64,000 nt of DNA, taken from contig NC_063023.1 of assembly GCF_020509005.1 (NCBI RefSeq), forward strand, positions 1-64,000, given 5' to 3'. The first letter of the stretch is position 1. Each line of letters starts with the position of its first letter. Of the stretch, positions 36,911 to 57,404 are shown piece by piece. The stretch is from Fulvia fulva. Its lineage: Eukaryota > Ascomycota > Dothideomycetes > Mycosphaerellales > Mycosphaerellaceae. The translations under genes and the position numbers were made by a program. The notes below the pieces were generated by a model. It searched no databases, was not told where the DNA came from, and saw only the letters and a program-made list of their open reading frames with translations.

Positions 36911-38477
36911 ATGCACGATTGCAGTCGTCCATCCGACACCGCCGCTGCAGCCATGCGCGACATCAGGTACCTCTCAAATACATCACATTTCGACACACCA
37001 ACACCACAATACCCACCTGTCTCAATTGCGTTCCATCTCACAATCCCCTCCTGCCTGAGCCTGCGAGCCTTTCTGCACTCCACCACGGCACTCGCTCCTA
37101 CACACGTGCAGGCTCGGGAGCTTCCGTCTCCTACGCACACTTTGTCAGCAGCTGGAGAGTCAGCATAACACAGGCGTCGATTTCGCATACGCATGGAACC
37201 CTGCCCACATCGTTACACACCATGAAACGATCACCACGTCCCTCCACTGGGGCACCACGCGATACAATCAGCTTGACGCTCAGCCAGTAGAGCTAGTATC
37301 GGCGCTAGAGGGTCGGCTTCAACCTCGAACGCGATGGGGGTGCCGATCAAGGCTGTGAAACAGCTGTAAGGAATGAAGTCTTCATGGCTGGATGTTGTGC
37401 TGTTGGCCCTGGGGGAAGAAATCACACGAGGCTGACGATCTCGGCAATCTGGGAAAGAGCAGACGCTCGGGATTCACGCGGACAGCGAGCGACGTTTGCG
37501 GATACGCCTCCCTGAGATCGGGTTCGGAATGTGGCTGAGTTAGCTGCATGTTCTGGAGCTATCCGCCATTTCGAGTTGGTTCGACACTTGATCGTCGCTG
37601 GTCTTGATTTCGAATTGAGACCTTTCGTGGTCCTTATCGTACAAAGTCACAAGCTATCCTCAAATCTGTCGTAAAAGTCGACACTGTCACGCTGCGGCAC
37701 GCACAGGTCGGGCATCATTTGTTGGGTTCGCAATCTAGACTCGGTCGCCACCAGGCTTCAATGCCGTCCATCGCTCTATTAAGGCAACGCAAGGCTCGCC
37801 GCGAGGAAGAGCCACGGTGATACATCAGGCGCTAGAGCAGATATGGCGGCTTTCCACGATCTAGTGGCTGCAGAATTATATGCGACATGAAAGCAGTGGC
37901 GGAGAACTTCGCACACCCGGCATGCGCAAGCCGAACGGCAACTCTTTGGCTGCACTACATCGAGACTCTGTACAGACTACAGGAGTTGGGTAGGGCTCCT
38001 GAAAGATCCCCGACTCTCAGCTGATGTTGGGCTTTATGTGATACTTCATGCGCCTTCAGTACAAGTACAGAGCTGATGCGACAATGGATAGATACGCATT
38101 CGATTTTGTGGTCATAGCTAAGAAGTGATAGTCCATTGAGATGTTGACACGGCGATGAAAGTGTTTCAAGACAGCTTTGCTTCGTGCGTACGACACTACG
38201 TTCCAACATGTGCAAAGTCTGCGTTACCGGCAATGCAACATGCTTTTGTAAGCTGAGCCTTGGAGGGAGATGACCCGAAGATCGACATGGATGCATTCTT
38301 CCGTGCCTGAATTGATGCACTCCGCATCTTGAGCGACATGACGATGCAGAGGCAACGTGAGGTATAATGGAGCAAGTCAGCGAAGCTTGGCTTATTCTGC
38401 TTGTCAGACATTCACTCGATCCTGACGCTGAAGCGAGTTCTATAGCAAAGCTGTAGCTTCAACCCATTCCGCTGGCC
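36911..38477. other. Intergenic, possible VOC remnant then nothing
   Basis: 36911-37430 may hold decayed upstream exons of the VOC-like gene. 37431-38477 shows only short unsupported ORFs; the last few hundred bases must include the pectinase promoter, but no motif is convincing. Confidence 0.4.
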
Positions 38478-39785
38478 ATGAAGCGCCACAGCACTCTTGC
38501 ACTTCTTGTGCAAAGCTTGTTCACTCTCGTCAGAGCACAGAGTATATCGCACTCTACACAAGATGGACGACCAATCTGCACCGTCACTCCACGCTCAAGC
38601 AACACCACCGACGATGTTCCTACCATCCTCAAAGCCTTCGACACCTGCGGCCACGGCGGCACCATTATCTTCCCAGCAGGCAACACCTACCACATCAACT
38701 CCAAGCTTAACCCCGTGGTCAACGATGTGGAGATAGACTGGCACGGCGAATGGCTTTTCTCCCAAGACCTCGACTATTGGCGCAACAACAATTACCACAT
38801 TGAATTCCAGAACCATGCTGCTGGATTCGTTCTTACTGGTGAGCACATCCGTATCAACGGCCACAGGACCGGTGGCATCAATGGTAACGGTCAACTCTGG
38901 TACTTCGATGAACGCGGCAATGATACAGTGGGCGCAACCCGTCCAGGCCGTCCCATCCCCTTCCAACTCTGGAATGTCAGCGACGTTTCCGTGAAGAACT
39001 TCCACATCATCCAACCTCAACTCTGGGCTATCAACATCATGAACGCCACCAACCTGCACTTCTCCAACATCCACGTCAACGCTACCTCCCCCGAAACTCC
39101 GTTAGGCTACAACTGGGTCCAAAACACCGACGGTTTCAACACGATGGATACCCGTAACGTTCTCCTCACAAACTTCACCTACCAGGGCGGAGACGATTGC
39201 ATTGCCATCAAACCCCGCTCCTTCGACATCACCATCAAGAACGTCACCTGCCACAGCGGCAACGGCATCGCAGTCGGCAGCCTAGGCCAATACCTCGACG
39301 ACGCTTCCGTCGCAAACGTCTGGATCGACAACGCCACCCTCATCAAAGGCGGCGCCCAAGACAACATCGGTAACGCTGTCTACATCAAAACCTGGGTCGG
39401 CGAGCTCGTCTCCGGCGGCGACCGCGACTACGAGTCCGACTACCAGCCCCGCGGCGGCGGATGGGGGAGCGTTACGAACATGCTGTTCTCCAACTTCAAG
39501 GTCTTGGGTGCCAAGGCTGGGGGCGTGATTACGCAGAACAGTGGTGACAATGGGACTGCGGCGGGGACGAGTAATATGCTGGTGAGGAATGTGCAGTTTG
39601 TGAATTTTACGGGGTATCTTGATGGGAGGGAGACGATGGCGAGTGTGAGTTGTTCGGAGAGGCGGCCTTGCTATAATATTGATTATCGGAACTATACCCT
39701 TTATACTAGTGGTGGCGGGACGAGTACGGGGGTGGCGAGCTGTAATTGGACGGAGGCGGGAGGCGTACATGGAGTGGATTGTTGA
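38478..39785 (+). CDS. Glycoside hydrolase family 28, exo-polygalacturonase-like
   Basis: 435 residues, single exon, with signal peptide MKRHSTLALLVQSLFTLVRA. GH28 catalytic motifs are in order: NTDGFNT (first Asp), GGDDCIAIK (two Asp) and a final VYIKTW in place of the RIK of endo-enzymes. The motif usually reading GHG is GNGIAVGSLGQY, the form seen in exo-acting fungal GH28 such as exopolygalacturonase, rather than endopolygalacturonase. At least eight N-x-S/T sites suggest heavy N-glycosylation. It would release galacturonic acid from pectin ends outside the cell. The 3' third uses codons ending in G/T more than the 5' part, which is C-ending; otherwise it looks intact. Confidence 0.93.
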   Translation: MKRHSTLALLVQSLFTLVRAQSISHSTQDGRPICTVTPRSSNTTDDVPTILKAFDTCGHGGTIIFPAGNTYHINSKLNPVVNDVEIDWHGEWLFSQDLDYWRNNNYHIEFQNHAAGFVLTGEHIRINGHRTGGINGNGQLWYFDERGNDTVGATRPGRPIPFQLWNVSDVSVKNFHIIQPQLWAINIMNATNLHFSNIHVNATSPETPLGYNWVQNTDGFNTMDTRNVLLTNFTYQGGDDCIAIKPRSFDITIKNVTCHSGNGIAVGSLGQYLDDASVANVWIDNATLIKGGAQDNIGNAVYIKTWVGELVSGGDRDYESDYQPRGGGWGSVTNMLFSNFKVLGAKAGGVITQNSGDNGTAAGTSNMLVRNVQFVNFTGYLDGRETMASVSCSERRPCYNIDYRNYTLYTSGGGTSTGVASCNWTEAGGVHGVDC

Positions 39786-39870: not shown

Positions 39871-40497
39871 TCACGGTCTAGTACTCGACTTCAGCATTGG
39901 CAGAGCATAACCTCTCGGCACTGGATTTCTACACAGCCCCTGAACACCTATCCGCAATCTGCCCACATCTCTCCTCACAGACTCGCAGCATCTTCTTGCG
40001 AATTTCTTCGTGTCCGCTATTTGCGCCTCCGATCTGTCTGTATGAGCACGAAGTTTGCTGATTTCTTCTTCGGTCACCTGGACACCCTTGACGTCGTCGT
40101 CCTCGGCAAGCTCGCCGATCAGCATCCATGGTGCCCCATGCGGATGCGTAAGGTCTTCATACACGCCCAGAGGCCTGCCCTTGCCGTTTAACGGGTACGC
40201 ACCGTTGCTGTGGAAGTAGACGGGCCTTATGTAGTAGACAGGTTCACCTTCTAGCTCGACGTCGAGGAGTTGAAACTATATCCCATTGTCAGTTCGGTAC
40301 CGTGCTGATAAATTAGTCTATCATGGACTCACATAATCCGCCAACTTCGGTTGGAGGCCTCTGATCGGGTCTTCTCGCGTGCCCTCGCTAGTATTGGAAC
40401 TGCTGAAGGTAGTTACTGCCTTAAGTCGCAGGTTGATCTCGCTACTCTCGGCGAGTATGTATAGCTTCAGTTTGATTAGAATGATGGCAACTCTAGG
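39871..40497 (-). pseudogene. Gene B1, C-terminal fragment (module 1)
   Basis: Reading leftwards, an exon ending KLADY at 40333 joins across a 57-bp intron (GTGAGT...CTGAC...ATATAG; 40276-40332) to an exon at 39871-40275. That exon carries the SNG-Y domain (VYFHSNGAYP, then VYEDLTHPHG and MLIGEL) and a helical end. B2 and B3 have the same intron position after a Tyr and the same domain. Upstream the homology stops at about 40.5 kb where RIPed transposon DNA begins; the missing N-terminal half is found at 43.18-43.6 kb. Compared with B2/B3 the charged C-terminal coil is short. Not expressible as one protein. Function of the family unknown. Confidence 0.7.
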
Positions 40498-40726
40498 TAT
40501 AACACTACCTCCTTCTCAGGCGCTCGCTGTTCAGACCCAGGGCTACCCGATCAGGTAAAGCGGGCTTAGGGGTCTTCTAGCGAAGCGCCTAAGGACAAAC
40601 TGCGCTATTCGGTCAAATCTGTATTCGTAGCCCGCTAAGACAGCGACAACATCTCGAATAACATAATAACGTAAACAGATATAGCTAATCGTAAGAAACG
40701 GTTCCTAAATAATATATATAAGAACG

Positions 40727-42820
40727 TGGGATCCCAAACGAGCTACTAAAGAAGTGTAGAGCTCAACTAGCCCTAGCAGCTATAGCGATCTTCAACGCCT
40801 ATCTATAGACCGGATACCACCCGATAGCATTTAAACAATCGACGATAGTGGTCCTACGTAAGCCGTAGAAGGAAGACTATACGTAGGTAAAGTCGTACCG
40901 CCTAATTACGCTCCTTAATACTCTTAGGAAGGCGCTTAAGAAGCTAGTTATAACGAGACTCTCCGAGGCGGTAGAGGAACACTCCCTACTCCTAGACACC
41001 TAGATAGGTGCGCGCCTATAGCGATCGACGCTATCCGCGATAGAACTTATCACCTCTTAGGTAAAGGCTATCTAGTATAAGAATAGGGACAAGGTAGCTT
41101 CCTTACTTAGCCTAGACATATCGGGAGCCTTCGACTACGTGTTATACCCGCGGCTACTCTATATCCTAAGGTCGAAAGGACTCCCTAAGTAGCTTGTCAA
41201 CTTCGTACGGTCCTACCTCTAAAACCGTAGTACGTCGATCCTAGTCGGCTAGTATAGAAGCCTATTTCAAGTAGTCTATACTAGAATCCCGTAAGGCTTA
41301 ACGCTAGCACCTATTCTGTTCCTCTTCTTTATAGCGACGCTACTCCTAGCCCTAGAATCCTAGAACACCGCTACGAGCGGCTTTGTAGACGACATAAACA
41401 TCCTAGCGTAGTCTTCCTCGACTAAGGAGAACTATAGGCTACTAGAAGAGAAGCACAAGATCTACGAGGACTAGGCTAGGAGGCACGGGGCTCGGTTTGC
41501 CCTAGAAAAGTACAATCTAATATACTTTACGCGCCGGCCACGGTTCTACAATATATAAGCTTCTATCTAGATATAGGGGTACACGACTAACCCGGTAAAT
41601 CAGCTTAGGATCCTCGGACTATAGGTAGACCCGGCGCTACGGTAGAGGAAGTACGTATAGGCAATATTACGGAAAGCTGAACAGAATATAGCATTATGCT
41701 AGAGGCTCACTACGTCTATATAGGGGGCGGACTTCCGGTAGTTACGACTTCTATATACGGCTATTATACGGCCAGTCCTTACCTATAGTAGCTAAGTATA
41801 GTCCTTAGGCGAGAGGGCCTACCTATCGAAGGGACTCGTCGCGCCGCTAGCGAAGATCCAAAACTAATGCCTAAGGAAGGTCACCGGGGTATACAAGTCG
41901 ATACTAATAAGGATGCTTAAGCACGAGACCGCTATACCGCCGATCGACCTATACATCTAGGGACTACGGACCTCCTACTTAGGCAAGTCGGCACAGTACC
42001 TAGTACAGAAGGTCATCGCCAGTGTAGTCGTAAGGGCCCGCGAATCAGTACTAGCGTATAAGGGCATTCGACCCGGAAACGAGCCGAACTATCGGGCAAG
42101 GGACGAACAGCTAGTAACGCGATAGGAAGGTAAGAAGTCGTTTGTAGAGCAACTATAGAAAGAGAGGTAGAACAACTAGGGTGTAGGGCACAGTGGACGC
42201 CCTTAGCCAGCGGGACAACCTAAGGAATGGTCAGCTACGAAATCCGCGGTCAAGCACCCCCCGAAGCTTATCCACTACCGCCTTACGAGGGCATAGAGTA
42301 GCATAGCAACCCAACTACGAAGCGAACACATCGGCCTCTAGGGGTACCTATTATAGAGGAAGGTTCCAGGATACACGAATACTAGCTGCCCCTACGGCTA
42401 TCGCTCCTAGAACGTACGGCACGCACTCCTCGTCTGTCCGAGGTGGTCGCTAGGAAGGGGGGAGTAGATGGCAAAGGCGAGGAACCGGACGATTAGGGCA
42501 CTTCTTAACAACGCTGAGGACCTACGGCGCATTACGAACTAGATACTAGAGAAGGGCTAGCTAGAACAGTACCGCCTAGTAGGAGCAGTACAGGAAGAGA
42601 GGACACGACGTAGCGCGACGAGACCGGCTAGGAGCGGGGGCTAACGGGGTAGTGACATGGACTACGTACGTTCAGAGGGAAAGCTAATATAGACAAGGAG
42701 TAGTCGGGGGCGGGAAGGGTTTTCACCTATTCGGGTTTCCCTTTGTATATAACAATAGATATATACCTATATAGGCCGGATAGGGTCCTAGAACAGGGGA
42801 ATGACAAATCTATCTATCTA
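40727..42820 (+). mobile_element. Tad-like LINE copy C, 5'-truncated, with target duplication
   Basis: Closely similar to copy B from its GGATCC...CTACTAAAGAAG block (about 13828) to the (ATCT)n tail. It starts within the reverse transcriptase and retains the FVDD box region. It is flanked by a 12-14 bp direct duplication ending ATATAAGAACG (40713-40726 and 42819-42832). It keeps more CpA/TpG than copy B at many sites, but stops are still present at the same places, so it is RIPed and inactive. Confidence 0.9.
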
Positions 42821-42832
42821 TATATAAGAACG
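42821..42832. repeat. LINE copy C target-site duplication, right (left copy 40715-40726)
   Basis: TATATAAGAACG occurs directly before the truncated 5' end of copy C and directly after its tail. This shows that copy C arrived by its own retrotransposition rather than by segmental duplication. Confidence 0.85.
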
Positions 42833-43181
42833 ATTGTACGTAGCTATCTCGCCGATAGCCCATAAGCTATAGGCTCGAGGGACAGTGTCCTTCGAAAGCT
42901 ATCGCGTATTCGTAGAACTAACATAGAATTGCTTGCCCTCCGACCCTATAGCGAGGCAACAACGCGTATATTCGAATATCGTAAATATCGGCGCTCCGTC
43001 TTCTCGACGCGACGAGGAAGCTCTAAGTGTTTATTTCAATATATATGCGTTAGATATTATGTTTTAACCTTCGAGGGCACGCGAGTGCGAGATTAGCCGA
43101 ATTTCGCGTTTTGCCCTTAGACCCTCGTAAGCGAGTACCCACCAACACCACAGTACGTACGAGCGACTAGCGAGGCGTCTG

Positions 43182-43652
43182 AACCGGAGATAGGTATGAC
43201 ATGCCAGTTGAGGCACTCCTCGGCTCGGTCTGATCAGCCTTGAAGACGATCCAGACCACAAGAACGATCATGCCAAATCACCCCTCCTTCTTACTTTTCT
43301 CGGCATCCCGGATCTACTCGCCGTTGTGAGCGGGTAGATGGTCGACAGGCTTTTGGACGTAACCACGAAGGAACCTCTCTGGCACTTGGACCTGCTCAGG
43401 CGTCATGTTGTCGAAGTAGTCGGTCGGGAAGGTCGATATGCTTCGTTTAGCTCGTTCTGGATCGCTCTGAGGACAATGCAGAACACGAGATCGATCAAGT
43501 CGACCTTGGTCTACATCAAGGGTGTCGCTGTTGTGTTTTCCTGATGAGAAGCTTCTGAAGAAGAGCAAGCTGAGGTGAATATTCGTGACAACTAGCGACG
43601 TGGTTCGTGCGTCTGTTAATGGCAGCGTGTTGCAGCTACGTTTACTTTGCAA
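43182..43652 (-). pseudogene. Gene B1, N-terminal fragment (module 1)
   Basis: The minus frame reads STFPTDYFDNMTPEQ and RFLRGY, matching DYFETM...RAYF in B2 and DHFVRM...RAYAGEL in B3. Further left, in another frame, comes EECLNWHVIPISGSD (about 43180-43220), matching NWIPLISGD in B2. Homology ends there at the transposon. An in-frame TAG at about 43314 and a frame change add to the damage. The start codon is unclear (43652 is TTG; an upstream exon is possible). It lies head to head with gene A1. Confidence 0.65.
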
Positions 43653-43876
43653 GCCGTTATGGATGAATCTCGTGTGCAGGTATTCTCAACTCGCCGTCAC
43701 GTGCGCGAAGAAAGCCGCGCTATGACCATTTGCTTGTGTAGGTGAGTGTGGCTTTGTCTGTGCGTTATACTGCCAACACTTTTCTTTGATACGTCCTTTG
43801 ATAAACAAGGATTATTCTTTGTTACCAGGTCGTGCTAGCAAAACCATAATTTGTGCAACAGTCATCCGATAACAAC
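43653..43876. promoter_or_regulatory. Shared intergenic region B1/A1
   Basis: About 220 bp between divergently oriented genes B1 and A1. Equivalent regions exist in the other two modules, so it is inferred to be a bidirectional promoter. No conserved motif across the three could be established by eye. Confidence 0.4.
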
Positions 43877-45556
43877 ATGGACAATATGTCAGTAACTGGG
43901 CGAGAAGGATCTCCTAAGCGAAGGCTGTCACAGAGTAGCCTAGCTACCGATGTTGAGAACTCACCGCGGCGGCGTAGGAAACCAAATACCGCAACGCTCA
44001 CGGGCCCCTCAGCAAAGCCCAGCGAACCACCTGACAATATCCTTGGAGAGACGACAAATGTTCTGCAACCGTTGCCAGGATCTTCATCTGAGAAGTATGG
44101 CGATAGTTCCTCTGCTGAATTTCAGAAGATCCAGGCGAAGGCTACCTGCGAGTCTTGGGAGGCGGGATTTGAAATTCTCCAGGACAAGCGTGGGCCTTCC
44201 GAGAATGGCGGTGTCATCGCTCTCCAAGAGCGGGCAGAAAAGCTTCGCTCTAGTGGTCCCAGACGACATCGACTGGAAATGGATGCTTTGGAGAAGCGCA
44301 TTGAGATACTCAAGCAGGACGTTGAGCAAGCGCAGCAGCAGCAGGATGACTCGACCATCGAGACGAACCAGGAGTTCGCTGCACTGATGCGTAAAGCGCG
44401 TGAGATCTACACGATGTGCAGTGCGATCGACATCCGGGGCTACCTGACCTCTTGGAATCTTCCCGACCCGATCTTCGAGCAGTTCGACCGATGTTCGGAG
44501 CTCGAAAGCCAGAGTAAAGAGCTCCGGCGTGAAAGAATACGGCTACAGGCGGAGCAGATCGGCAAAAGAGACGAGATCCAGGTTATTCTGGCTCGCATCT
44601 TTGAGCTGCGCAGCTCGTGCAGTCCTGGTCATGAGCCCGATACATCGGAACTGGAAACGCAGATCAAGCAGCTTCGCGAATCGCCGGAGCTCCTGACTCT
44701 AGACAAGGAGTGCCAATGGTACAGTGCTGAGCTTGATGCTGTCGAGCTTGATCAGTCTCGAGCAGAGAACACACTGTACCAGACCCTCGAAGGCTATTTC
44801 TTGGCGAGAGAACTCTTGGTAGATAAGACGGTACCAGATCTTGGACCAGAGAACAGTCCGCAGGATATCTCTGTAATCAACTCCAGAGTTTGCTGCACGC
44901 CGGCCGCGGGCAGCTTAGAAGAAGCAGACGGGACGCAAGACTTCGCCACGCAGTTGACAAAGCGACTCGCTCCAATATTGAAGGCTCACTTCCAAGAAGC
45001 CCGGCAGGAGCTCGAAAGCTCTCAGTCCAGACTCGAAGCGTTGCGGGATGCTGGTGATATCGATCCAGCAGAGCGTGCACTGGCTGAGTCTCCGGATCAT
45101 GCCATCTTCCTAGCCAAGCGAGAGCGGACGAGGGAAGTCATCAAAGCCGAGGAGAAGTTCAATGATGTCTGCAAGCGTGCGCAGGACGCAGGTATCGCGG
45201 GGGTTCCGGCGAGATCTACCGGATTCAGCGACCACCCTAGCGATGGTTACGGTGCGGACACTGTCGAGGCCCACATAAAGTTAACGGATGTCGCCGGTAT
45301 CGAGAAGTGGATTGATACCGAGACATCGTCCAAAAAGAGAGTTCTCTTCGCTCAAAGCGATATCGTCCAGATGCTCGAGCCTAGCGAGCCAGAAGAACGA
45401 CCAGATCTTGAGCCTCTGGTCCTTGGCGAGAGCTACAGCACCATCGCTCAAGCGAGGCAGAGGGGCCATATTGATGTGTGGTTACGCATGCAGACGCCGC
45501 AGATAGTGAGCGAGAAGGATGTGTTCAAGAGCAGAGGGTGGCGGATGAGTGTGTAG
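43877..45556 (+). CDS. Gene A1: coiled-coil protein, conserved RMSV C-terminus (module 1)
   Basis: 559 residues from the ATG at 43877 (the frame opens slightly earlier, but only with GTG). Single exon, intact. The N-terminus has Ser-Pro sites and basic clusters (GSPKRR, SPRRRRK) like a nuclear localisation signal. Most of residues 90-430 is heptad-rich helix (LEMDALEKRIEILKQDVEQA). The C-terminal third is the best conserved part of the family: AERALAESPDHAIFLAKRER, PARSTGFSDHPSDGY, WIDTE, LGESYSTIA, then a terminal WRMSV. It is homologous to A2 and A3. No known domain recognised; probably a nuclear structural or scaffold protein, by inference only. Confidence 0.8.
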   Translation: MDNMSVTGREGSPKRRLSQSSLATDVENSPRRRRKPNTATLTGPSAKPSEPPDNILGETTNVLQPLPGSSSEKYGDSSSAEFQKIQAKATCESWEAGFEILQDKRGPSENGGVIALQERAEKLRSSGPRRHRLEMDALEKRIEILKQDVEQAQQQQDDSTIETNQEFAALMRKAREIYTMCSAIDIRGYLTSWNLPDPIFEQFDRCSELESQSKELRRERIRLQAEQIGKRDEIQVILARIFELRSSCSPGHEPDTSELETQIKQLRESPELLTLDKECQWYSAELDAVELDQSRAENTLYQTLEGYFLARELLVDKTVPDLGPENSPQDISVINSRVCCTPAAGSLEEADGTQDFATQLTKRLAPILKAHFQEARQELESSQSRLEALRDAGDIDPAERALAESPDHAIFLAKRERTREVIKAEEKFNDVCKRAQDAGIAGVPARSTGFSDHPSDGYGADTVEAHIKLTDVAGIEKWIDTETSSKKRVLFAQSDIVQMLEPSEPEERPDLEPLVLGESYSTIAQARQRGHIDVWLRMQTPQIVSEKDVFKSRGWRMSV

Positions 45557-46382
45557 TCAGTGCTTACATCCCAGACTACGCTTGGCCGATGGAGTCGTGA
45601 TCATAGAGTAAAGTTCCAGAAGTTTGATGCCAAGATGTCAGCGTAGATTCCAAGTCGTGTCTCGTGTCAAAAATTTGCTCTTACTTACCAGAAATGCGCT
45701 GCCGCATAGCTGAATGATGCTTTCAGCGCAAGATAAGGGTACTCCACGTCCTCTGTCTTCGGTTGTGTAGTACGCCAGTAGTTCTGTCGCGTTCAAAGAG
45801 ACCTCGAGATCGGGGCAGCGTTCTCGCTTGGCCATGTCCGCGCAAGTCGCCACGCAAACACGAGTCCGAATCGCCTTGACTAGCCAGGAGCCGATAGCTT
45901 ACTTCTATTGGCGCCTTCTGTGAGTCTCAGCCAGGGAAGGGCGGCGTGGGATGTGTATTGTAAGTTCGTAGTCACCCAGGTCGTGCTGACAGAAGAGGTT
46001 GAGCTGTTGCATTTATGCAAAGCTCCGCTTACAAAGCTTCAAATCCTGTCCGTGGAGCCGGAAGTTGTGTACGAAGTCAGTTCGAGGCAGGATCGCTACA
46101 ACATTACATGTACCTGAGTGCTCTCGTATGTGACGGCCTTGCCTTGAGTCTTCGGAAGCGATGTTGCAAGCTGTGATCCGTGAGCTGTAACAAGACGTCC
46201 ATATATTGAGTAGCACGAAGTGAAAGCGTCAGCAGACCATCCATGTATGCATTACTCGTACCTATCATGGCGCACCCATCCAAAGCAAACCCAGAACGCC
46301 GAGCAAGTTTCTCCATGCCTCCCATCTCACTCATTACCCAAACGCTACCAGACCCAAAGGGAAATCGTGCACCAGTACCCAG
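45557..46382. other. Intergenic, weak minus ORF
   Basis: 826 bp between A1 and the end of B2. A minus ORF (45638-45853) ends in a possible GTAAGT donor but has no recognisable partner exon or motif, so it is not called. Confidence 0.4.
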
Positions 46383-48297
46383 CTACGCATGTCGAGCTTC
46401 CACACACTTACACTCACAGCTTCCTTCGTTTTGTTGCGTCCCGATTCTCCTTGTCCTCGTCAGCGTGCTTCCGATTGACGTCGTGCCCTCGCCGAGACAG
46501 CCAGCCAAGGTGGAGGGGCCCATGTCTTTTCCGAGACGCTCTAGCAGTGAGGGCCGGTTGGTTCCCGCCTTGCGCTTGTTGGAGGTCCCGTTGTTGCTCG
46601 AGGCAACTGGTGGGGTGGTGTTTGTGCCGTCTCCGAGCGGTGGTCCTGCATCATGTTCACGGCCGGTTATGTTCTGACTGCGTTCGTTGGGGGGCTGGTT
46701 GTTCCGCATGTTCCGCAGCTGTTGTCGAGCATGTTCTAGAGTCTCTGCGGCCTGCGGTCGCTGTCCTTCGCACCTGTCCCCCTCTTTTTGTTGCTCATTG
46801 GCGAGCTTCTCCTCCTCCGCCTTCTGCTTCTCCGCTTCTGCTTTCTGCTTTCCTCAAGTCTCTCTTTGTCCTCACGATCGAAGCGCGCCTTCCTGTCTGC
46901 CTTCTTCTGCTCTTCCTGGATGTTCTTTCGTGATAAGTTGAGCTTACGAACGCTGGCAGCGGCTGTGATCTGGTGCATAATATGAAAATCTTGGATGCCC
47001 TTCACATGGCCAATGATCATGTAAGGTGAGTTCGACGGGTGAGGATAGGTCTTGTGAATATCGATGAAGCGGTCCTCCTTGTTGCAAGGATATCTGCCGT
47101 TTGAATCGAAGAGGATGCGAGGAAACTTGCAGGCCGGCTCCAATGGTGTGTTGATCTCATCAGTCGCCTCGTGGATCTGAACCTAAAAGCCACAGTCAGT
47201 GCGGTACATAGCGACGGTAGTGCTGTACTCTACTTACGTAATTGTTCAGAAGCGGGATTCTTCCCAAGAGGCTGTCCTCCACGGTAGCAGTCCTGGAGTT
47301 GATGGTCCCGCTGATGGTTGTAAGCAGAGACAGGTCCGTGCTCTGTGCAGTAGGTTCGCGGACAAGCCCGCCTGAGGCTTCGACATTGCGATGTCCCCAG
47401 AAATGAGGGGAATCCAGTTGGTGTCATCCTCGTTGGGATCCTTGCTATCACCTCGCACGTTGTTCATGTAAGCCAAAATGATATTGCCGGGGCGAAGCGT
47501 TGGCTTATCCTCATCATCAGGAAACACCCAATGCTCACTTTCGTACGTTCTTCGGCCCAGACGATCACACAGCTTACGGAAATATGCTCTGGTAAATTTG
47601 TATTCCTTCTCGGCTTGGGGTCTACTCATCGTCTCGAAGTAGTCGCGGGGGATGTTGACATCTTGAATGGTCACATTGGTTTGTGCGGTGTGCGGTGCTT
47701 GAGTATTGGCGTTGATGGGCGCGCGGTTGCTCATCGCAAGCCTATTGTCACCCTGTGGGACCAGGAACTTGCTACCCGAGCTAGCTGATGGGGTGTGTTG
47801 CTGTTGGGGCGGTCGAGCGACCGGCTGTTGTCTTGCTGGCTGTGCTGGTGGAGCTCGAGGTTGACGTACAGCCCAACCTTCGCCATTGCCAACTGGATTG
47901 TGATTCCTCGGTGCCCGTGTCGCTCTACGGTCTTCCTCTCGAGGTCGATAATAGTCTCCTTGATCTGCGGGTCGAGGATCACGTCGATGCCAGTAGTCGT
48001 AGTGGTGTCCATCGTGATATTGGTTGCCGTAGACATGCTGAACGCCGATGTTTTGCGTGCCGGGATTTTGGTTGCCATAGTAGTTATCACCACCCTGCGG
48101 AGCGGTGTATCTGCGGTAGTCACCCCCTCGAGTATCGCGTTGTCGGTCGGGGCGTTGCCGGTCATGGCGTTGCTGGTCGTCGTAAGGGCGACCCCCGTTT
48201 CGCTCGTTCTGGGGATCCGTGTCGGACACAGGTAGTTTTTGGTGTGGCAAATGGATCTTGTTGATGAAGCTGGATGAGACGGAAGCTGTCTGGACCG
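46383..48297 (-). pseudogene. Gene B2: DYF/NW and SNG-Y domain protein with coiled coil (module 2)
   Basis: The first block (from about 48297 to 47390) has an Arg/Gln/Pro/Tyr-rich N-terminus, then IPRDYFETM, RAYFRKL and GNIILAYMNNVRGD, ending NWIPLISGDIAMSKP. After a frame change near 47390 it continues to LLGRIPLLNNY. A clean 55-bp intron follows (GTAAGT...CACTGAC...TTTTAG; 47183-47237), then VQIHEATDEI, ILFDSNGRYP and YMIIGHVKG. In the following Lys/Glu/Arg coil the frame shifts at about 46860, after which KAEAEKQKAEEEKLANEQQ is the obvious coiled-coil reading down to a stop at 46383. No ATG opens the N-terminal frame (48250 is TTG). The two frame changes suggest a decaying gene, though unknown splicing could rescue the first. 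Confidence 0.65.
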
Positions 48298-48732
48298 CGA
48301 TTCAGTTCCGCTCGTTGTCGAGGTAGCGAGTCTTCCTCACGACGGCGACGAGGTATTCCGCATCCGTTGATAGGTATCGCGTTCGGCAATGGAGTCCAGC
48401 GGTGGTGGTCAGAGCGGAGGTGATGTCAGTCTTTGCGATCTGATGTTGTTGGTCGGGATGTCGAGCAGAAGATAAGAAATGAATTGGATGAGCGAGCTCT
48501 GTGGAGCTTTGAGTCATAAGTGGTGAATGTTTGTGTCGATTGTGGCTGGTGAACGATGCCGGTGAATGATTTCGCGGCATGTGTCATGTGTTAGCGGACA
48601 AAGCCACTGTTGAAGTAAGGGTCCAGAACAATTTCCTTTCCTCTACAACTTCAGCAAACCTGCCTTCTCTTCCCAAGTTTCACCACACTCGACTCAACCA
48701 CTTCAACAAGACAAAACGAAAGACCGTCCAAG
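48298..48732. promoter_or_regulatory. Shared intergenic region B2/A2
   Basis: 435 bp separating the divergent B2 and A2 frames; it may also hold an unrecognised first exon of B2. CT-rich pyrimidine stretches and CAAC repeats (48640-48730) directly precede the A2 start, as in many fungal promoters. Confidence 0.4.
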
Positions 48733-50667
48733 ATGTCTTCAACGCCGCCAACATCGCCACGTGGGTCTGGAAAGCGCAAGTCATCGGACGATGATCTCGC
48801 TTTTCAGGTGTCGCCAACCAGAAGGCGCAAATTGACGCACGATCTTGACATTCCCCAAATGTCAGCAGAGAATGCTGCAGTCATCGCCACTGACGCTGGA
48901 CCAAGTTCGCCTGATGCGCACGCCATAAGCATGCAGCATAGCGGAGATGACAGGACGGATCCAAAAGACGTCATGTCTTCAGGGCATGCTAGACACAATG
49001 GTCTTCCATCTTGCGGAGACTGGGAAGACTCTCTGCAAAGCGCTGATGGGTCCTCTTCGTCGAGTGATGTTTCGACAATACACCCGGCTGAGGAAGCGGC
49101 GACCGAGATTGTGCTGGAGACTTCATCGAACCTCGAGTATAGCCGCCAGCCTACTTGCCACGAGGACTGGGAGGACAACTATGTGCAGACTGAGACGACC
49201 CAAAGACTCGTCGAGCTTTTGGGAGCACACGTCGAGCTCCGCCGCTGGGTAAAGGAGCAGTTTGTCCAGATCCACAAACGAGAAGACATCTTGGATACTC
49301 TGACCAGGCACGGAATCAGGCTTGAGGCGAGGATTGACCGCCTGACGGATCGACGAGGTTCGCAAGAGCGGCAACATCCCGAGATCGAGCATCTTCTGGA
49401 CAAGCTCCACCATCTGCTAAGCGTTATCCGGTCGAAGCAATCCGAGCGGAACAAGTTGGTACTGGGTGCGAATGAAGGTGCGAGTACGCTAAGCCGGAAA
49501 GCGTCTGCAATATGCTCGTTGTTCGATAAGATTGATGTCGAGCAGTCTCATCGTTTTGCAGGCTTTCCATGCTACTTCTTTGACGACCTCGCCGAGTGCC
49601 AGTACCTTCACTGGCGTCGCACGCAGCTTGAGATAGCGTTGGAACATAGTCGGAAAGAACAGACCATGAAGAGGGACGAGATCTTCGAAGCGATCGTCGC
49701 TGTGTTCCGCGCACGGCAGCAGCCGCATCAAGACGGCAACGTCCCTCTGGCAATCTTTGAGGAAGGACTGCACAAGCTGAGGACATCGGACGCCCTTCTC
49801 GAATTAGACCAGATCTGCGATAATGCAGCAGCAGACCTGCAAGAGCTTGGGCCTCAACTCCGGCAAGCTGAGGTACGCCTCTACGACACTGTCGAAGATT
49901 ACTTCGTGGCCAAGAATATGGTTGATCCTGCTATGTTGCCGAGCGATGATGACGATGATGAGCTGGACTGGATATGGGACGGTGGAGAGATGCCTTCCAC
50001 GCCGTTGCAAGACCCTGACATGCCCATAGTAGACGAGGCCAGTCTCGCGGCAGAATTGAAAGGTCGTCTGGCGGTTGTATTAAAGGAGCGATACAACGCC
50101 GCTGTCGATCAACTCGATTGGTGCGAGGAGCGTCTGGATGCCATTCGGCGGACTGAAAATCTCGACGACAGTGAGAAAGCACTAGCAAAGGCTCAAGATC
50201 AAGCCTTCTTCTTGGCAAAGCAGAAACGCACTCGTGAGCTTTCTGATGCTCAAGCCGAATACGAGAGGGTACTTAGAGACGCACAAGATGCCGGTGTATC
50301 GCGGGCTCCGGCCAAGTCGACAGGTTTCAGCAGCCAAGCCAGTGATGGCTATAGTCCCAGCATCGTCGAAGCCCATAACAGACGGACCGGTCATCTCGAT
50401 GTGAATGACTGGATCCCGCCCCACACAGCATTCGAGACGGCGAATGATCTCGATCTCATCACAGGTCGTCCCGTGGAAATGCTTGCGCCTAGTGAGCCAG
50501 GTACGGGAGAAACAGCAGCTGTCGGGCTCCTAGACCTTGGCGAGAGCCACAGTACAGTTGCTGCCGGGAAAAGCAGGGCTCGGATAGATGGTTGGCTTGC
50601 GGTGCAGAAGCCACTTGCCAGAGAAAAAGATGTGTCCACGCCGCGTCGGCGACGAATGAGCGTGTAG
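48733..50667 (+). CDS. Gene A2: coiled-coil protein, conserved RMSV C-terminus (module 2)
   Basis: 644 residues, intact single exon. It starts MSSTPPTSPRGSGKRKSSDD with Ser-Pro and basic clusters (SPTRRRK). The central region is largely helical with an FPCYFFDDLAECQ block shared with A3 (FPAKFFADFAACQ), LYDTVEDYFVAKN, and an acidic SDDDDDELDWIWD insert. The C-terminal family signature is complete: EKALAKAQDQAFFLAKQKR, PAKSTGFSSQASDGY, LGESHSTVA, DGWLAVQKP and final RRRRMSV. It is the longest of the three A proteins. Head to head with B2. Function unknown. Confidence 0.82.
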   Translation: MSSTPPTSPRGSGKRKSSDDDLAFQVSPTRRRKLTHDLDIPQMSAENAAVIATDAGPSSPDAHAISMQHSGDDRTDPKDVMSSGHARHNGLPSCGDWEDSLQSADGSSSSSDVSTIHPAEEAATEIVLETSSNLEYSRQPTCHEDWEDNYVQTETTQRLVELLGAHVELRRWVKEQFVQIHKREDILDTLTRHGIRLEARIDRLTDRRGSQERQHPEIEHLLDKLHHLLSVIRSKQSERNKLVLGANEGASTLSRKASAICSLFDKIDVEQSHRFAGFPCYFFDDLAECQYLHWRRTQLEIALEHSRKEQTMKRDEIFEAIVAVFRARQQPHQDGNVPLAIFEEGLHKLRTSDALLELDQICDNAAADLQELGPQLRQAEVRLYDTVEDYFVAKNMVDPAMLPSDDDDDELDWIWDGGEMPSTPLQDPDMPIVDEASLAAELKGRLAVVLKERYNAAVDQLDWCEERLDAIRRTENLDDSEKALAKAQDQAFFLAKQKRTRELSDAQAEYERVLRDAQDAGVSRAPAKSTGFSSQASDGYSPSIVEAHNRRTGHLDVNDWIPPHTAFETANDLDLITGRPVEMLAPSEPGTGETAAVGLLDLGESHSTVAAGKSRARIDGWLAVQKPLAREKDVSTPRRRRMSV

Positions 50668-51351
50668 CTTCAAGCACAGCTTTTTCTCGTGGATTCCGAA
50701 GGGCGTCAAGCTTGTGAAATCTGGAGGGAGTTGCTCTTGGGTGAATGGCGCTGTCTAGAGATTGTGATGTTCTGGAGCAGACATTTCGATGTATATATGG
50801 TTGTGATCTTCGCATATACTGCCAGAGATCCCGAAAGAACGCATTCGATAATCCTAACACTGCCCGCTGCCGAGAATGGCGGATTTTGATGAGTCTTCAA
50901 TGGTTTGTCGTGCTGGATGGAGATGATGAGTTGCTCTCTTTGGCGAGACTTTGTGAGATTGAAAGACGGCAGGAAGCTTCCCGCCGCGCATCGTCCATCA
51001 TAATGTAGTCCATACACATCGTCTGGTTTGCGTAGATCCGACATACGACGCCCAGTAACGTCCAGAAGAGCGATTCTCTGGATCTGGCATGATCAATCGT
51101 CCATTATGCGGGAGATCCAGGGGACAGCAAGGCGCGCATGGCGGAGACCCGCAGAAATCATGGTGGGCTCTGACCACACAGCCATAGGACGGACTGCCTC
51201 GGAAGAGATATAATAGGCGTAAAATGCTTTTCCGATGATATTGATGCCGTTCTTGATGATTGTCGAAGAGGTGAAGTGCAGCTGTCACATGTGAAGACCG
51301 CGGTACCCCACATTCTGCATCCCTGTCATCCCGCAGTGAACCCCGATATCA
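50668..51351. other. Intergenic, no supported gene
   Basis: 684 bp between A2 and the DUF3984-like gene; only short overlapping ORFs. The last 100 bp carry C-rich promoter-like sequence. Confidence 0.5.
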
Positions 51352-52773
51352 TTGATCTCAACTTCAAAACACTCACATGCCTACCACCACGCCCACGCCC
51401 ATATCGCTGAAGATTACACATCGATAATGGTATGCATAGCCCTCCCCACTGACCATGACCGTACTCACCACTCGCAGTCCAACCCTAGCACCCCTCGATC
51501 CCGATCCCGCTCCAAGCGGTCAACCACAAACCTATCGAACCTCCGCCTCGCACCACTATCCACCAAGTTCGCTGAACCTTCCGACGACGTCGGCAAAGGC
51601 CCGAAGACCCCAAAGAGCCCCTATGCCGACGACGACGCGACTTTCACACGCCAACACCCCTCCTACCTCCAAGGCCGCTCCGCCCCAACAACACCCGGTA
51701 TCCTGTCGCGAAGCTCAAGCCGGAAACACCTTGGCGGAGGTTTGAGCAGGAGGGTGTCGATATATGACGATGATAATGCCCTCGCCGATGGCGACGCTGA
51801 TGCAGAAGACGAAGTACAATACACCTACAATGCCAATGCTCGCAGTCTCGCGCAGAATCGAGGAAGAGCAGACTTCGGTAGTGGAAACATCCCCAAAGCT
51901 AAGAGTGAGGCTGCCATCACTGCGCAACGGCATGGGCTATCGGGTCAAGGCGTGCCGTTGCGTAAGCATGGCAATGTGAGACGGCCAAAGAGCGGTATCG
52001 CGACACCAAGACATCTAGACGATGATGATTGGCTACGACACACAGGCTCTACCGCTGCAGCACTGGTCCAGGAAGGCAAGGGACAAATATGGCGGAGCTC
52101 GACAAACCTCACTGTGCCTGAGAGTGAGGATGACGAAGACGATGATCGATATGAGGAGATGGCGAGACTCAGCGCAAGTACAGCGAAGCTTCAACTAGGA
52201 CAGTTTGAGGGACCTGGAAGTCCAGTCCTCGCAAGGAGTGGACGATCGGCATCAAACTGGGGAAGTAGATATGGAAGTCGTAACGCAAGCCAGCGGACTA
52301 GTAGAATCGCAAGTCCAGTTGGAACAAGAACGCCGAGAAGAGCGCAGGATGTGCCAGGCTACTTCGATACACCCGTCCACGAGGCTCCAGCAGAGGATGA
52401 GGTCGCCTTTGCGAAGCCCCGGGAAGAATCAGACGAATACGAAGACCGAGCTGAAGTCGACAAACTATCACAATCCAACAGCTTTGGATTGGGCAGTGTG
52501 GTGGACAAGCTCATGAACTTCAACCTTTTCAAAAATGACGAAGGAGCTGAGACGACGGATGATGATCTCGGGAGTGCGAGGAGGAGCGAATCGCCTGACG
52601 AAGCTCGAAACCGTATGACCGCTGAAATGGAACGAAGACGAGAGGAGAAGGAACGCTTGGCGGCGCAGCCACGCCCTGCGCCGATGGGGGATGGGAAGGA
52701 TGGGAAGGGTGAAGTGGGAGGATGGACGGATGCGGCATGGTTGCTGAGTGTGGCGAGTAAGGCGATGTTCTGA
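51352..52773 (+). CDS. DUF3984-like fungal protein
   Basis: 473 residues, single exon; the ATG at 51427 (MVCIALPTD) is an alternative start. Low-complexity, Ser/Arg/Asp-rich, probably disordered, with conserved islands: LSNLRLAPLSTKF, HPSYLQGRSAPTTPGILSRS, SSRKHLGGG, then DDDDWLRHTGSTAAAL. It ends GGWTDAAWLLSVASKAMF. Those islands and their order fit the fungal DUF3984 family, which has no assigned function. It stands between modules 2 and 3 and has no visible link to them. Confidence 0.7.
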   Translation: MISTSKHSHAYHHAHAHIAEDYTSIMVCIALPTDHDRTHHSQSNPSTPRSRSRSKRSTTNLSNLRLAPLSTKFAEPSDDVGKGPKTPKSPYADDDATFTRQHPSYLQGRSAPTTPGILSRSSSRKHLGGGLSRRVSIYDDDNALADGDADAEDEVQYTYNANARSLAQNRGRADFGSGNIPKAKSEAAITAQRHGLSGQGVPLRKHGNVRRPKSGIATPRHLDDDDWLRHTGSTAAALVQEGKGQIWRSSTNLTVPESEDDEDDDRYEEMARLSASTAKLQLGQFEGPGSPVLARSGRSASNWGSRYGSRNASQRTSRIASPVGTRTPRRAQDVPGYFDTPVHEAPAEDEVAFAKPREESDEYEDRAEVDKLSQSNSFGLGSVVDKLMNFNLFKNDEGAETTDDDLGSARRSESPDEARNRMTAEMERRREEKERLAAQPRPAPMGDGKDGKGEVGGWTDAAWLLSVASKAMF

Positions 52774-53513
52774 TAGACTGACCTGGTATCTGTACAGTCC
52801 CGTCGCAAGAGTGTCCCCCTCAGAACACGTACAGCAGGCCTTTCTCCATTCTGTGGGATGACAGAAACAACACACTTGCAGGCATTTGGCAGGCAGAACT
52901 GATGCTAACATGTCTCCATAGCAAAACTTTCGCCCCGTCTGTCGACGAAGACAGGCATGCTCCAATCTTCATTCATCTCGCAACTGCTTCAATATTACAA
53001 GGATGGGCCATATCACCCCACAAACGCCTCATGAATCATCGCGTAGAACAGCGTGTGCTTGACACATCTGTCTCTACTCCCGAGTCTGACACACCAGCAC
53101 ACCAGCAACAAAAATCACATACTTTCATGTCAACCAACGTGACAGAGAGAGTCTCCCAAAGAGATTGATTGATGCTGACCAACGCAGCAGAGCAGGTGTG
53201 AAGGGTATCAAACCACTCCCCCCTCCGACCGAAGTCCCCCGGGCTTGTGGTTGATGAGTCATGAAATTTGGTGGTCACTTATATAGCTTAATCTGTGGCG
53301 TCTTGGCGCACATGTGAAAGTGCCCCGCCTCAGACGAGCCTGGATGCAGCGTTTGCAAGCAAAGCATCGCACTTTGAGATGCTTCGCGAGAAGTCGAGTT
53401 TGAGAACGTTGCCAGCTGGATACGGAACTATGTATGCTCCTGTGCATTCCAGACGTCAACTTGGCTTCGAGCTACATACGCTACCAAGCACAAGGCCACA
53501 CAACCACCGTCAA
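52774..53513. other. Intergenic, no supported gene
   Basis: 740 bp between convergent genes (DUF3984-like and A3). Short ORFs on both strands without motifs; a small acaccagc repeat occurs near 53090. Confidence 0.5.
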
Positions 53514-55283
53514 TTATATACTCATTCGGCGGCTACTCGGTGTACTCTTCCGGCTGACCACTCGCGGCTTTTGCACTGCCAACCACCCATCGATGCGATC
53601 CTTATCTTTCCCAGTCGCGATAGTACTGTAGCTCTCGCCTACATCCAGAGACTGCAGTACTGGACGCTCTGCGTTTCCCGGCTCGTCAGGCCCATCCATT
53701 TGAACGATTTTGCCATCGGCATAGTCCACTTTGCTCTTCGCAGACTCCTCGTTGTCGACCCACTGTTGCACGCAGTCCAGGTCCGTCCGGCCGACGTACA
53801 ACTCGATGGTTCCGGAAGTGTAGCCGTCACTCGCATGGCTGCTGAAACCGACGGATTTGGCAGGAATGCCTGACACACCCGCTTCTTGAGCGCTGCTTAA
53901 GATGTCGAGACATGCTTCTTCGGCTTCAACAAGCGCTCTCGTGCGTCGGGACTTGGCCAAGAAGAACGCATGGTCTACGCTTTCCGCTGAAGCACGTTCC
54001 TCAGGTGTCAGATCGCTCATGAGTCGTAGTGCCTCAAGGTGCAATCGGCAAGCTTCCACCTCGCGCGCGGCAGCTTTGTACCTTTGACGCAGAACATTCT
54101 GGAGTCGACGATCTACCTGTCGAGACATGTGATCTTGGTCAAAGGGCTTCGCATCTCTCTCCTCTAGTGGTGTTGAGAACTGTTCCCTGCGACCTCCCTC
54201 AATCGCATCAGCATCGACAGGATCGCTGATGACGAAGGCCTCCAGACGCCCCTCTGCTACGAGGTGTTCTTCGATGGTATCGTAAAAGATTACCTCGATG
54301 GCGCTGAGCTTCTTTTCGACCGCGTCAAGCTCCTCTGCTAGATTGTCGCAGCTCCTTTCAAGGTCCAGAAGATCAGGAGCTGCTTTCAATTCCTCGAGTT
54401 CGTCTTCAAGCGCCGAAAGGGCCCTCTCGGCTTCCTCGCTCAGCTCGGAATTGCGGGCTTGGATGACCTGTACCACCATCTGATGGATCTGATCTTGCCT
54501 AGCATCCACTTCCAGGCGTGAAGCTTTGAGTTCTTCCTCGATCTCCTGGAGTTGCAGGTCCAAATCTTGACATGCTGCGAAGTCGGCGAAGAATTTGGCT
54601 GGGAACCCCCGGAATACCGCGAACCGTTTGATGTTCAAGCCTTCCACAAGTCGATACACCGCGCGGACATGACGAGTCAACGCATTTGCTTCGTTATTGA
54701 GTCGAATGGTGGCATCATTCTGTTGGTCCTGTTTGGACCTGATCAACACCTCTATGTCTCGGATCTCGTACTCAAGTCGGTCGATCTCCCGGTCATCGTG
54801 CAGCTCCCTCGAAGACGGGATTTCTTCCAACTGCTGCCGGCGATGCTTTAGACCTTCTCCATTGGCCAAAATTGCGGCTTCCGCTGCGTATTCTGCGACT
54901 TTAGCAGTACCACGCTTCAGATTTCTACGGATTTCCACGTTCGCTTCGATGTCTTGGAGCATTTTTGCTGCATCACTGACATCTTCGAAGCTGCCTTCCC
55001 AATGCTGCCAGCACGATGTGTCGCGATCTGTGCGCTCGCTTACAGGCTTGGACTTCTCGACATCGGCGCTCACTAGAGCACTTGACGCGAGAGGCTCCTC
55101 AGCGGACTGTGGTACTGGAGGCAGTCCTTCTCCGGTAGATTCCAGGCAATTCGGCATACTGATACTTCGCGGCTGCTCGCCGTGTACCTTTTGACGTCGT
55201 GTTGGCGAAGAAGACAACAGACCGTCATCTGAACGCTTCCGCTTCAGAGGACTCGAGCCAGACGCCTGTGATCCGTCCGACAT
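53514..55283 (-). CDS. Gene A3: coiled-coil protein, conserved RMSI C-terminus (module 3)
   Basis: 589 residues from the ATG at 55283 (MSDGSQAS); the frame is open 42 codons further upstream, but that part is not conserved. Single intact exon. The N-terminus SSPLKRKRSDD and SPTRRQK are NLS-like. The centre is almost continuous charged helix (EIDRLEYEIRDIEVLIRSK) with the FPAKFFADFAACQ block. The C-terminal signature is intact: ERASAESVDHAFFLAKSRR, PAKSVGFSSHASDGY, LDVGESYSTIA, DGWLAVQKP, terminal SRRMSI. A3 lies head to head with B3, with the module inverted relative to modules 1 and 2. Function unknown. Confidence 0.82.
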   Translation of the reverse strand: MSDGSQASGSSPLKRKRSDDGLLSSSPTRRQKVHGEQPRSISMPNCLESTGEGLPPVPQSAEEPLASSALVSADVEKSKPVSERTDRDTSCWQHWEGSFEDVSDAAKMLQDIEANVEIRRNLKRGTAKVAEYAAEAAILANGEGLKHRRQQLEEIPSSRELHDDREIDRLEYEIRDIEVLIRSKQDQQNDATIRLNNEANALTRHVRAVYRLVEGLNIKRFAVFRGFPAKFFADFAACQDLDLQLQEIEEELKASRLEVDARQDQIHQMVVQVIQARNSELSEEAERALSALEDELEELKAAPDLLDLERSCDNLAEELDAVEKKLSAIEVIFYDTIEEHLVAEGRLEAFVISDPVDADAIEGGRREQFSTPLEERDAKPFDQDHMSRQVDRRLQNVLRQRYKAAAREVEACRLHLEALRLMSDLTPEERASAESVDHAFFLAKSRRTRALVEAEEACLDILSSAQEAGVSGIPAKSVGFSSHASDGYTSGTIELYVGRTDLDCVQQWVDNEESAKSKVDYADGKIVQMDGPDEPGNAERPVLQSLDVGESYSTIATGKDKDRIDGWLAVQKPRVVSRKSTPSSRRMSI

Positions 55284-55774
55284 ATTGGAGGTCAAGTCGT
55301 TATGGTGAAGATCGGAGGTCAGCGGGATCTGGATTGGGTTCAAATGGGATAAGTAGCAGGCTTTGTCACTTGTTTTCGGGACAAAGCAGAAGAATAAAGC
55401 GAGAATCATTCACCAACCAGGACCACGTGACCGAAAGTGAAGGACTCACAGTCGGTCTTGCCCAATCGGTCGCGAACGCCTTCGATCCATCTCAATATGA
55501 GAGTCGGAACGCTTCTCGCGTTGCGCGCACAGATCATTATGCGCCCGACTACTGCAACGAGACTGTTCATTCACGTCGTCCTACGGCTCGTCAACAACCA
55601 CAACTTCGTCCGAACCTCATCGCAACTCTGCTCATTCGCAATCTTAACCTCGATCACCTTGGAATACCACCAACATCCGTGGCGGATGACCTCGACCACC
55701 ACACCGACAGACAATACATCCAGACACACATAGCTCTTCCAGGACAGTCCACAAACATACAATTGCAAAGTATC
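55284..55774. promoter_or_regulatory. Shared intergenic region A3/B3
   Basis: 491 bp between the divergent starts of A3 and B3. A CCAAT is present at about 55460. It is inferred to drive both genes. The plus-strand frame of B3 is open through much of it, but without an ATG near the conserved part. Confidence 0.4.
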
Positions 55775-57404
55775 ATGGCGAGTCAGCCAACGCAGGGAAG
55801 CCAGAGGTTACAAAGATGGACGGGACAAGCAACCGAACCGCAGTTGACCCAAGCAGCACCGACACAGCAACAGCCAACGATGACCCAGCCACCACAAGTA
55901 CCTGTATCCGCTGTGCCCTCAAGGGTGTTCGATCCGGATGCAAGTCGCAGTAGGCTCGTGATGAGGGCAGGCCAGTCCGCAACGCTGAGTACGACTTTGT
56001 CTCCTACGGCAGCACCGTCACAGGGAGTCCCAGCGGCAGCGACAGCAACCCCGAGTACCGTGTCCATAGGCCATATCATTGTCAATACGGACCATTTCGT
56101 CCGCATGGAGCTGGACGAGGCGAGAGAGGAGTATCGAATGGTCAGGGCGTACGCTGGGGAGCTCATGCAGACGTTGTCTCGTCATCATTTCCCTGGCAGA
56201 GGTTGGGAAAGTGGCCCTGACCACGTCCGTGAGGGTGATATCATCTTGAGCTATGTGCTTGAGTATCGAGGCAACACGACCGAGCCAGATGCGGATGCCA
56301 TCAACTGGATGTTTGTGCTTGGGGGCGTTCTCATGATCAAACCAAGACCGCCTCCGATGCCACGGCTCGACCACCTTTGGCGAGTCGGATCTCGAGAACA
56401 TCATTCTGGAGGATGATATTCGTCGCAGAAGATCCAAGCTCGCCGACTACTTAAGTTCCACCGAGCTGATTCTCTAGTATTGCTAACAGATCAATTAGGT
56501 CCAATTCCAGGATATGGACAATGAACGAGACATGCGTATGATGTGGCAATGTCAAACACCTACCATTTGGTTCGAGTCGAATGGCTCCTACAACTTCCTC
56601 AAGGACGGACAACCCGTTGAGCGCTACATCCCGCTGTACGAAGACTACATCCACTGCTTCAGCATTCCGTACAAGGTCATCGGCCGCGCCATCAGCCTGG
56701 ACGCCATCGACGGAATGCGCTTCATCGAAAAGGAGAAAGCCTCATACCGCTTGAAGTATCTCGACGAAGCGCGCCGTAAGCGCGTGCTTGAAATGAGAGA
56801 AGAGGATAGGCTGAGAGCAGAGAGGCAGGCAGAAGAGGACAGACGTGCCGCAATTTCACATCAACGTCGGCGGCGTCGTCAATGTGGGCAGCAGAGACAG
56901 GATGGCCCCTTGGACTACGGCGATGAGCTCCCTGAGGATCGCGACACACGTCGAACCGCACGCCAACCGCGTGATGCCCCTGCAGCACCGACTGCTCGCC
57001 AGAACAACCGCGCCGCTCGTGCTCGTCAAATTCCAGCAGGCAATCAGGCGCAGGTCCCAGGAGCCCAGCCTGCGGACATTAGACAGGACGGCATGACCCA
57101 GCACCGACCACTTCAAGCCCGCCAACAAATAAGATCCGAGATCTATGTTGACCCCAACGCTGTTCAAGCTGCGCCACCGGCCCCCAACCTCGGATTGCGC
57201 CCAGGTACCAAGCGTCAAGGCGAACCTGCAGAGAACCCACACACGAAGCGAATCCGCGAGGCAAATATCGGCATGTCCACTCCGGCCGGTCATGTCAAGC
57301 GAGACACGGACTTGAACAAGGTCCCCAAGGACGACAATGAGGGCGACAAAGAGAATCGCCAAGTCGAGAACGATGATAAGGAGGAGAATGACAGTGGCGA
57401 GTAG
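55775..57404 (+). pseudogene. Gene B3: DYF/NW and SNG-Y domain protein, splice donor altered (module 3)
   Basis: From the ATG at 55775 (MASQPTQGSQ) comes a Gln/Thr/Pro-rich start, then VNTDHFVRM, RAYAGEL, EGDIILSYVLEYRG and NWMFVLGG. Just after this the frame changes by one (about 56330-56390) to reach ESDLENIILEDDIRRRRSKL and ADY at 56450. B1 and B2 have a GTGAGT/GTAAGT donor exactly after this Tyr; here the sequence is TTAAGT. Branch (GCTAAC) and acceptor (CAATTAG, ending 56498) are intact. The second exon (56499-57404) has WFESNGSYNF, IPYKVIGRAISLD, a charged coil and a basic, Gln/Arg-rich, then acidic tail. Either decayed or spliced in a way I cannot see. Confidence 0.65.

Follow-up and report, generated by a model that had tools for sequence, protein, structure and literature searches.

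A divergent pair of orphan genes in three modules near the left end of Cladosporium fulvum chromosome 12, with one partner apparently in decay

In basidiomycetes the HD1/HD2 mating-type genes form divergent pairs of dissimilar genes, and fungal spore killers are an example of the toxin-antidote type of system. Eukaryotic toxin-antidote pairs such as sept-1/zina-1 are made up of two tightly linked, lineage-specific genes (PMC13411925), and Candida albicans has subtelomeric lineage-specific families (PMC9713401) that are marked by their place at chromosome ends, duplication, divergence, and birth and death. Here we describe a locus that resembles each of these in part. It lies in the left subtelomere of chromosome 12 (Chr12) of Cladosporium (Fulvia) fulvum Race 5, the tomato leaf-mould fungus, where a divergent pair of genes, called A and B below, occurs as three modules. 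The window that we analysed is the whole stretch C12:1-64000, in a genome of 67,169,167 bases on 14 contigs. With a probability of about 0.5, we read the locus as a lineage-restricted subtelomeric orphan pair with a bidirectional spacer that has gone through two block duplications, with A maintained and B decaying.

The window opens with eight telomere repeats (AACCCT, positions 1-48), in agreement with Table 2 of PMC9453070, which lists them at this end of Chr12. The modules sit ∼40–57 kb from the chromosome end, and thus near a telomere like the C. albicans families. Unlike those families, the duplicated block here is a divergent two-gene unit, and the likeness drawn here is one of location and history. 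With toxin-antidote pairs the locus shares the tight linkage of its two genes; the difference is that here one partner appears to decay and the other is intact, and A and B are likened to such pairs by arrangement. HD1/HD2 loci likewise carry repeated divergent pairs whose members are dissimilar, but the host here is an ascomycete and there is no homeodomain in the window. A homeodomain mating-type pair was rejected: PF00046 is found at five places in the genome, none of them on C12, and in none of the eight A and B pieces.

The order along the chromosome is B1(-)A1(+), B2(-)A2(+), a DUF3984 gene, and A3(-)B3(+) (Table 1). A preliminary description of the locus had proposed that every A lies head to head with a B and that module 3 is inverted as a whole. 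Both hold, as B-family sequence stands opposite each of the three A genes and the last pair is in reversed order. The modules are not contiguous, since the DUF3984 gene separates module 2 from module 3. Gaps of 0.2–0.5 kb had also been proposed, and this fits A3-B3 (491 bp); the A2-B2 spacer measures 998 bp to the first in-frame B2 ATG and 431 bp to the edge of the open frame; for A1-B1 a size cannot be defined, because the start of B1 is lost.

Table 1. Features of the A/B modules and their spacers (window positions)
Feature	Position	Strand	Description
B1 second half	39871-40440	-	exon 1 end (LADY stretch), GTGAGT intron, exon 2 (SNGAY domain)
High-copy repeat, RIP-mutated	40729-42831		between the B1 halves
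B1 exon-1 remnant	43160-43450	-	internal stops and frame break; pseudogene
GGCTTTGTC in A1-B1 spacer	43750-43758	+	suggestive only
A1	43877-45556	+	intact ORF, 559 codons; NLS-like N-terminus, conserved C-terminus
B2 exon 2	46383-47182	-	SNGRY domain, charged tail, coding-frame switch near 46.85-46.9 kb
B2 exon-1 open frame	47249-48301	-	first in-frame ATG 47734; DYF..RAY..GNIILAY..NW domain
GGCTTTGTC in A2-B2 spacer	48597-48605	-	suggestive only
A2	48733-50667	+	intact ORF, 644 codons; nearest to outside relative P0002
DUF3984 gene	51340-52770	+	Pfam match; between modules 2 and 3
A3	53514-55283	-	intact ORF, 589 codons; Met at 55283
GGCTTTGTC in A3-B3 spacer	55359-55367	+	inverted GCTTTGTC ~20 bp off; suggestive only
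B3 exon-1 open frame	55775-56413	+	DHF..RAY..GDIILSY..NW domain; clear homology, weak coding signal
B3 exon 2	56499-57404	+	SNGSY domain and tail, 301 codons, strong coding signal

All three A genes are intact open reading frames (ORFs). Pairwise identities are 34.3% (A2-A3), 31.4% (A2-A1) and 35.7% (A3-A1) over 541–580 aligned residues, and in a genome search the copies match one another at E 3e-81 to 1e-52. Under a coding model built from 23 ORFs, each of 300 codons or more, in 20 stretches of the same genome, the true frames of the three A genes score 1.4–2.7 bits per 100 nt, and the other frames -6.8 or less. Whole-genome six-frame searches (67.17 Mb) with A2 and A1 found no place beyond A1, A2 and A3; in these and in the B searches, scores were computed for the best candidates only. 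That neither protein family is recognised, as the preliminary description had stated, is confirmed for the libraries searched: among the eight A and B pieces no Pfam match exceeded the cut-off (the best, CsgE to A3 at E 0.0078, falls short of it), and among solved structures the best match for A or B had E 0.074, with none for A below E 0.07. A bacterial or viral origin of A was considered and set aside, as none of the 12 pattern matches of an A profile in viral contigs, nor of its 60 in prokaryote genomes, was confirmed as a relative by tblastn; the same was done for a prokaryote origin of B with an exon-1 profile (509 pattern matches in prokaryote genomes), each of these scans resting on just two short peptide patterns. 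With the terms tried, the papers listed from an open-access library gave no description of this pair.

The B genes are less uniform. Exon 1 follows the pattern D(Y/H)F..M...RAY..L...G(N/D)IIL.Y...RG....P..D..NW and exon 2 the pattern F.SNG.Y......P(Y/W)..IG, followed by a charged tail, which suggests that the two exons together encode a small folded domain and a tail that is basic and charged. Homology among the three, proposed from the start, was examined by pairwise BLASTP rather than by profile-profile comparison, and a lack of similarity that would have spoken against it was not found. Exon 1 of B2 matches that of B3 at E 3e-18 (3.6e-14 in the genome search), and for exon 2 the values are 5e-11 for B1/B2, 1e-8 for B1/B3 and 8e-7 for B2/B3, the last aided by the charged tails. 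In the genome search B2 exon 2 matches the other B copies, and B3 exon 2 matches B1 alone (E 0.019). Four whole-genome searches with B returned only B1, B2 and B3, not all three each time, together with three weak rows (E 0.37–0.74) that we take as chance. A set of 5.8 billion proteins gave 17 candidate B relatives, none at E ≤ 0.1, which is a weak negative as the query was one diverged exon.

The state of the B genes differs between modules. B1 is a dead pseudogene. Its exon-1 remnant can be matched to B2 exon 1 with the stops masked (E 8e-4), and its two halves are separated by a ∼2.1 kb part of a longer repeat that has at least 40 other copies on at least 10 other contigs, 94–96% identical among the matches listed. 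This repeat carries the marks of repeat-induced point mutation (RIP): its TpA/ApT ratio is 2.13, its longest ORF has 68 codons, and in comparison with four other copies 73–76 of 80–82 differences are transitions. A single B1 gene (39871-43685) split by a 3-kb intron was also considered and rejected, because the RIP-mutated repeat fills most of the gap and exon 1 has stops. In B2 the intron (GTAAGT..TAG) follows LLNNY and may be preceded by another, of 53 bp and with a weak donor. The coding signal of B2 exon 2 moves from one frame to another (7.7 -> 6.9 bits per 100 nt) inside a purine-rich repeat, and the introns able to explain this switch either lack a CTNAY branch motif within range or measure just 38–47 nt. 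In B3 there is no GT at the shared intron site after the LADY stretch, which the exon-1 frame does not reach. The same intron after a Tyr had been proposed for all three B genes; the canonical donor is present in B1 (GTGAGT) and B2, and the proposal fails for B3. A 115-nt GT-AG intron (56384-56498, weak donor) would join the 203-codon exon-1 frame of B3 to exon 2, and B3 may be expressed in this way. The coding score of that exon-1 frame is -1.3, versus -1.6 in another frame.

Outside C. fulvum a single relative of A was found. A search of the protein set with an A profile returned A2 itself and P0002, a protein of 621 amino acids from ENA on a contig of 3,714 bases; 8000 candidates were scored, and A1 and A3 were missed though they are in the query, so that misses are to be expected. 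The C-terminus of A3 returned A3 alone. In the clusters of the protein set, the A3 cluster stands for five contigs and the A2 cluster for two. P0002 is 51.7% identical to A2, 35.1% to A3 and 30.5% to A1, and is probably an orthologue or close co-orthologue of A2. As every pair other than A2-P0002 falls at 30.5–35.7%, the A2 branch looks older than the split between the organisms, and the split of A2 from A1 and A3 probably predates that from the organism of P0002. The pairing of A with B was kept through two duplications and an inversion, as had been claimed, with A copies now only 31.4–35.7% identical as against 51.7% for A2 and P0002.

The anatomy of A is known from motifs and periodicity. 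A common C-terminal signature had been described and is found in all three ORFs; conservation is highest in PA.S.GFS...SDGY, GES.ST.A, ID.WL..Q.P and, at the very end, RMS(V/I), with P0002 having PP for PA. All four A sequences have N-terminal KR/RR clusters in a pattern resembling a bipartite nuclear localisation signal (NLS). Invariant columns among the four number 7 in the 40-column NLS-like block and 15 in the GES.ST.A block. The coiled-coil body of the preliminary description stands in part: the 3.5-residue hydrophobic periodicity was reached by block-shuffled sequences in 2 of 300 cases for A3, 0 of 300 for P0002 and 14 of 300 for A2, which is marginal, and A1 does not show it. We infer that A is a nuclear and partly helical protein, given the conserved N-terminus and the heptad periodicity of most copies, and that its conserved C-terminal segment of ∼150 residues most likely binds a partner.

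The surroundings of the modules are mixed. The first 18 kb of the window appear RIP-mutated (TpA/ApT 1.8) and contain pieces of a Copia-type retrotransposon (RVT_2, gag, Pol_BBD) at 1868-5785 (-). Near the edge between this DNA and gene-rich DNA, a 91-bp unit occurs in two tandem copies (17144-17326). Three adjacent ORFs lie at 24894-29328 (-), one with a weak F-box-like match (E 0.0024, under the cut-off) and the other two F-box-like by eye only, without a Pfam match. A single-frame gene of the GH28 (polygalacturonase-type) family is found at 38457-39782 (+), just past the end of B1. On the other side, 3.0 kb past the B3 end of module 3, there is a HET-domain gene at 60406-61053 (-) (PF06985, E 2e-24), which probably extends into an ORF at 59199-60191 (-) that has no Pfam match of its own.

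Under the reading that we prefer, a divergent A/B pair with one spacer would have gone through two block duplications in this subtelomere, one block being inverted, and the duplications would probably be older than the separation from the lineage in which P0002 is found. The common spacer would be a bidirectional promoter and would probably co-express A and B. B would since have been decaying, with B1 dead, B2 carrying a frame switch to judge by its coding signal, and B3 lacking GT at the shared donor, and A would work, or have come to work, without B in cis. In this genome A and B are always paired; A is intact in 3/3 modules, and B is dead in one, with the remaining two either damaged or open to doubt. 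As A1 is intact beside a dead B1, B would seem dispensable in cis to A1, and as all three A genes are intact while B decays, the pair would not be an obligate one-to-one system today. The preliminary description had gone further and taken the kept pairing as a sign that the products work together or are co-regulated. We do not uphold the first of these, in view of A1 beside a dead B1, the frame switch of B2 and the altered splice site of B3, and because block duplication alone keeps neighbours together, so that pairing is no proof of joint work. That both genes survived to ∼30% identity speaks for a link in the past, and the decay of B against one that is obligate now. Co-function of A and B is possible, as is complementation in trans by B2 or B3.

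Several observations weigh against this reading. The age argument is an unrooted comparison of four sequences only. B3 is not certainly broken, an idea that was dropped since another GT-AG intron can join its exons, and the exon-2 coding signal of B2 (7.7 bits per 100 nt) and B3 (6.8) exceeds that of the A genes, so that B has been long under selection and may still be. For A, the nuclear location and the C-terminal binding role are read from motifs alone, A1 lacks the periodicity (its value is equalled in 66 of 300 shuffles), and in a stricter coiled-coil test 0/118, 0/133, 0/50 and 4/99 windows pass, a result that says little as this threshold passes almost nothing. The 9-mer shared by the spacers is weak evidence. 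Each spacer has one copy of GGCTTTGTC (0.09 expected in the spacers), the rest of the 64 kb has none, and 200 kb of other stretches have one, but it was noticed after the fact, and some common 9-mer was present in 117 of 2000 random genome triplets (∼6%) and in 49 of 2000 Markov-model triplets. The element (reverse complement GACAAAGCC) includes ACAAAG, which forms the core of HMG-box sites in fungi, but does not extend to the complete (A/G)ACAAAGAA, the consensus bound by the Podospora anserina HMG-box factor PaHMG5 (PMC3730723). If the element were an HMG-box site, A and B would be a mating or sexual-stage module expressed in sexual development. Its presence in 3/3 spacers would fit this, but the site leaves the consensus after ACAAAG, the part of PMC3730723 on binding reports far weaker binding of PaHMG5 at non-consensus sites, and with the chance level given above we find the idea very doubtful.

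A more serious alternative is that A and B are neighbours without any relation, duplicated together as a single block, with the short divergent spacer keeping them adjacent passively and no functional link between them. We regard this as possible on a tentative footing: block duplication alone explains the 3/3 pairing, and A persists while B decays, but both genes lasted in each block until their proteins were ∼30% identical, and they did so in a genome that, according to PMC9453070, does not share a well-conserved gene order with D. septosporum. A decaying selfish toxin-antidote (meiotic drive) pair, with B as the present or former killer and A retained in its copies as the antidote, would match a subtelomeric, diverged and duplicated orphan pair of which one partner has become a pseudogene in one module and the other is kept. 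It is nonetheless improbable, since no Pfam family over the cut-off was found, toxin families included (signal peptides and membrane segments fall outside that search), the old divergence and the relative elsewhere are unlike a recent sweep, and ordinary subtelomeric birth and death yields the same pattern. Least likely of all is a non-self recognition (het) locus with polymorphic A/B genes acting together with the HET-domain gene; this gene is close to B3, but filamentous ascomycetes are rich in HET genes. Returning to the orphan pair with a decaying partner, a more far-reaching version of it is that the pair makes up a nuclear two-component system of the Mycosphaerellaceae that has not been described before, acting either as a selfish driver or in the paired regulation of sexual development, and now being dismantled through the loss of B. 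C. fulvum reproduces mostly asexually. We consider this version unlikely.

In any case, the locus holds two families that have no matching entry in the libraries searched, and that would have stayed divergently paired through at least two block duplications before one partner began to be lost. The locus is therefore a small natural experiment on the question whether paired genes act jointly or are only passively linked. Should sister species have the same pairing, a nuclear system not yet described would be indicated, and if they do not, the locus would be a case of ordinary subtelomeric birth and death.

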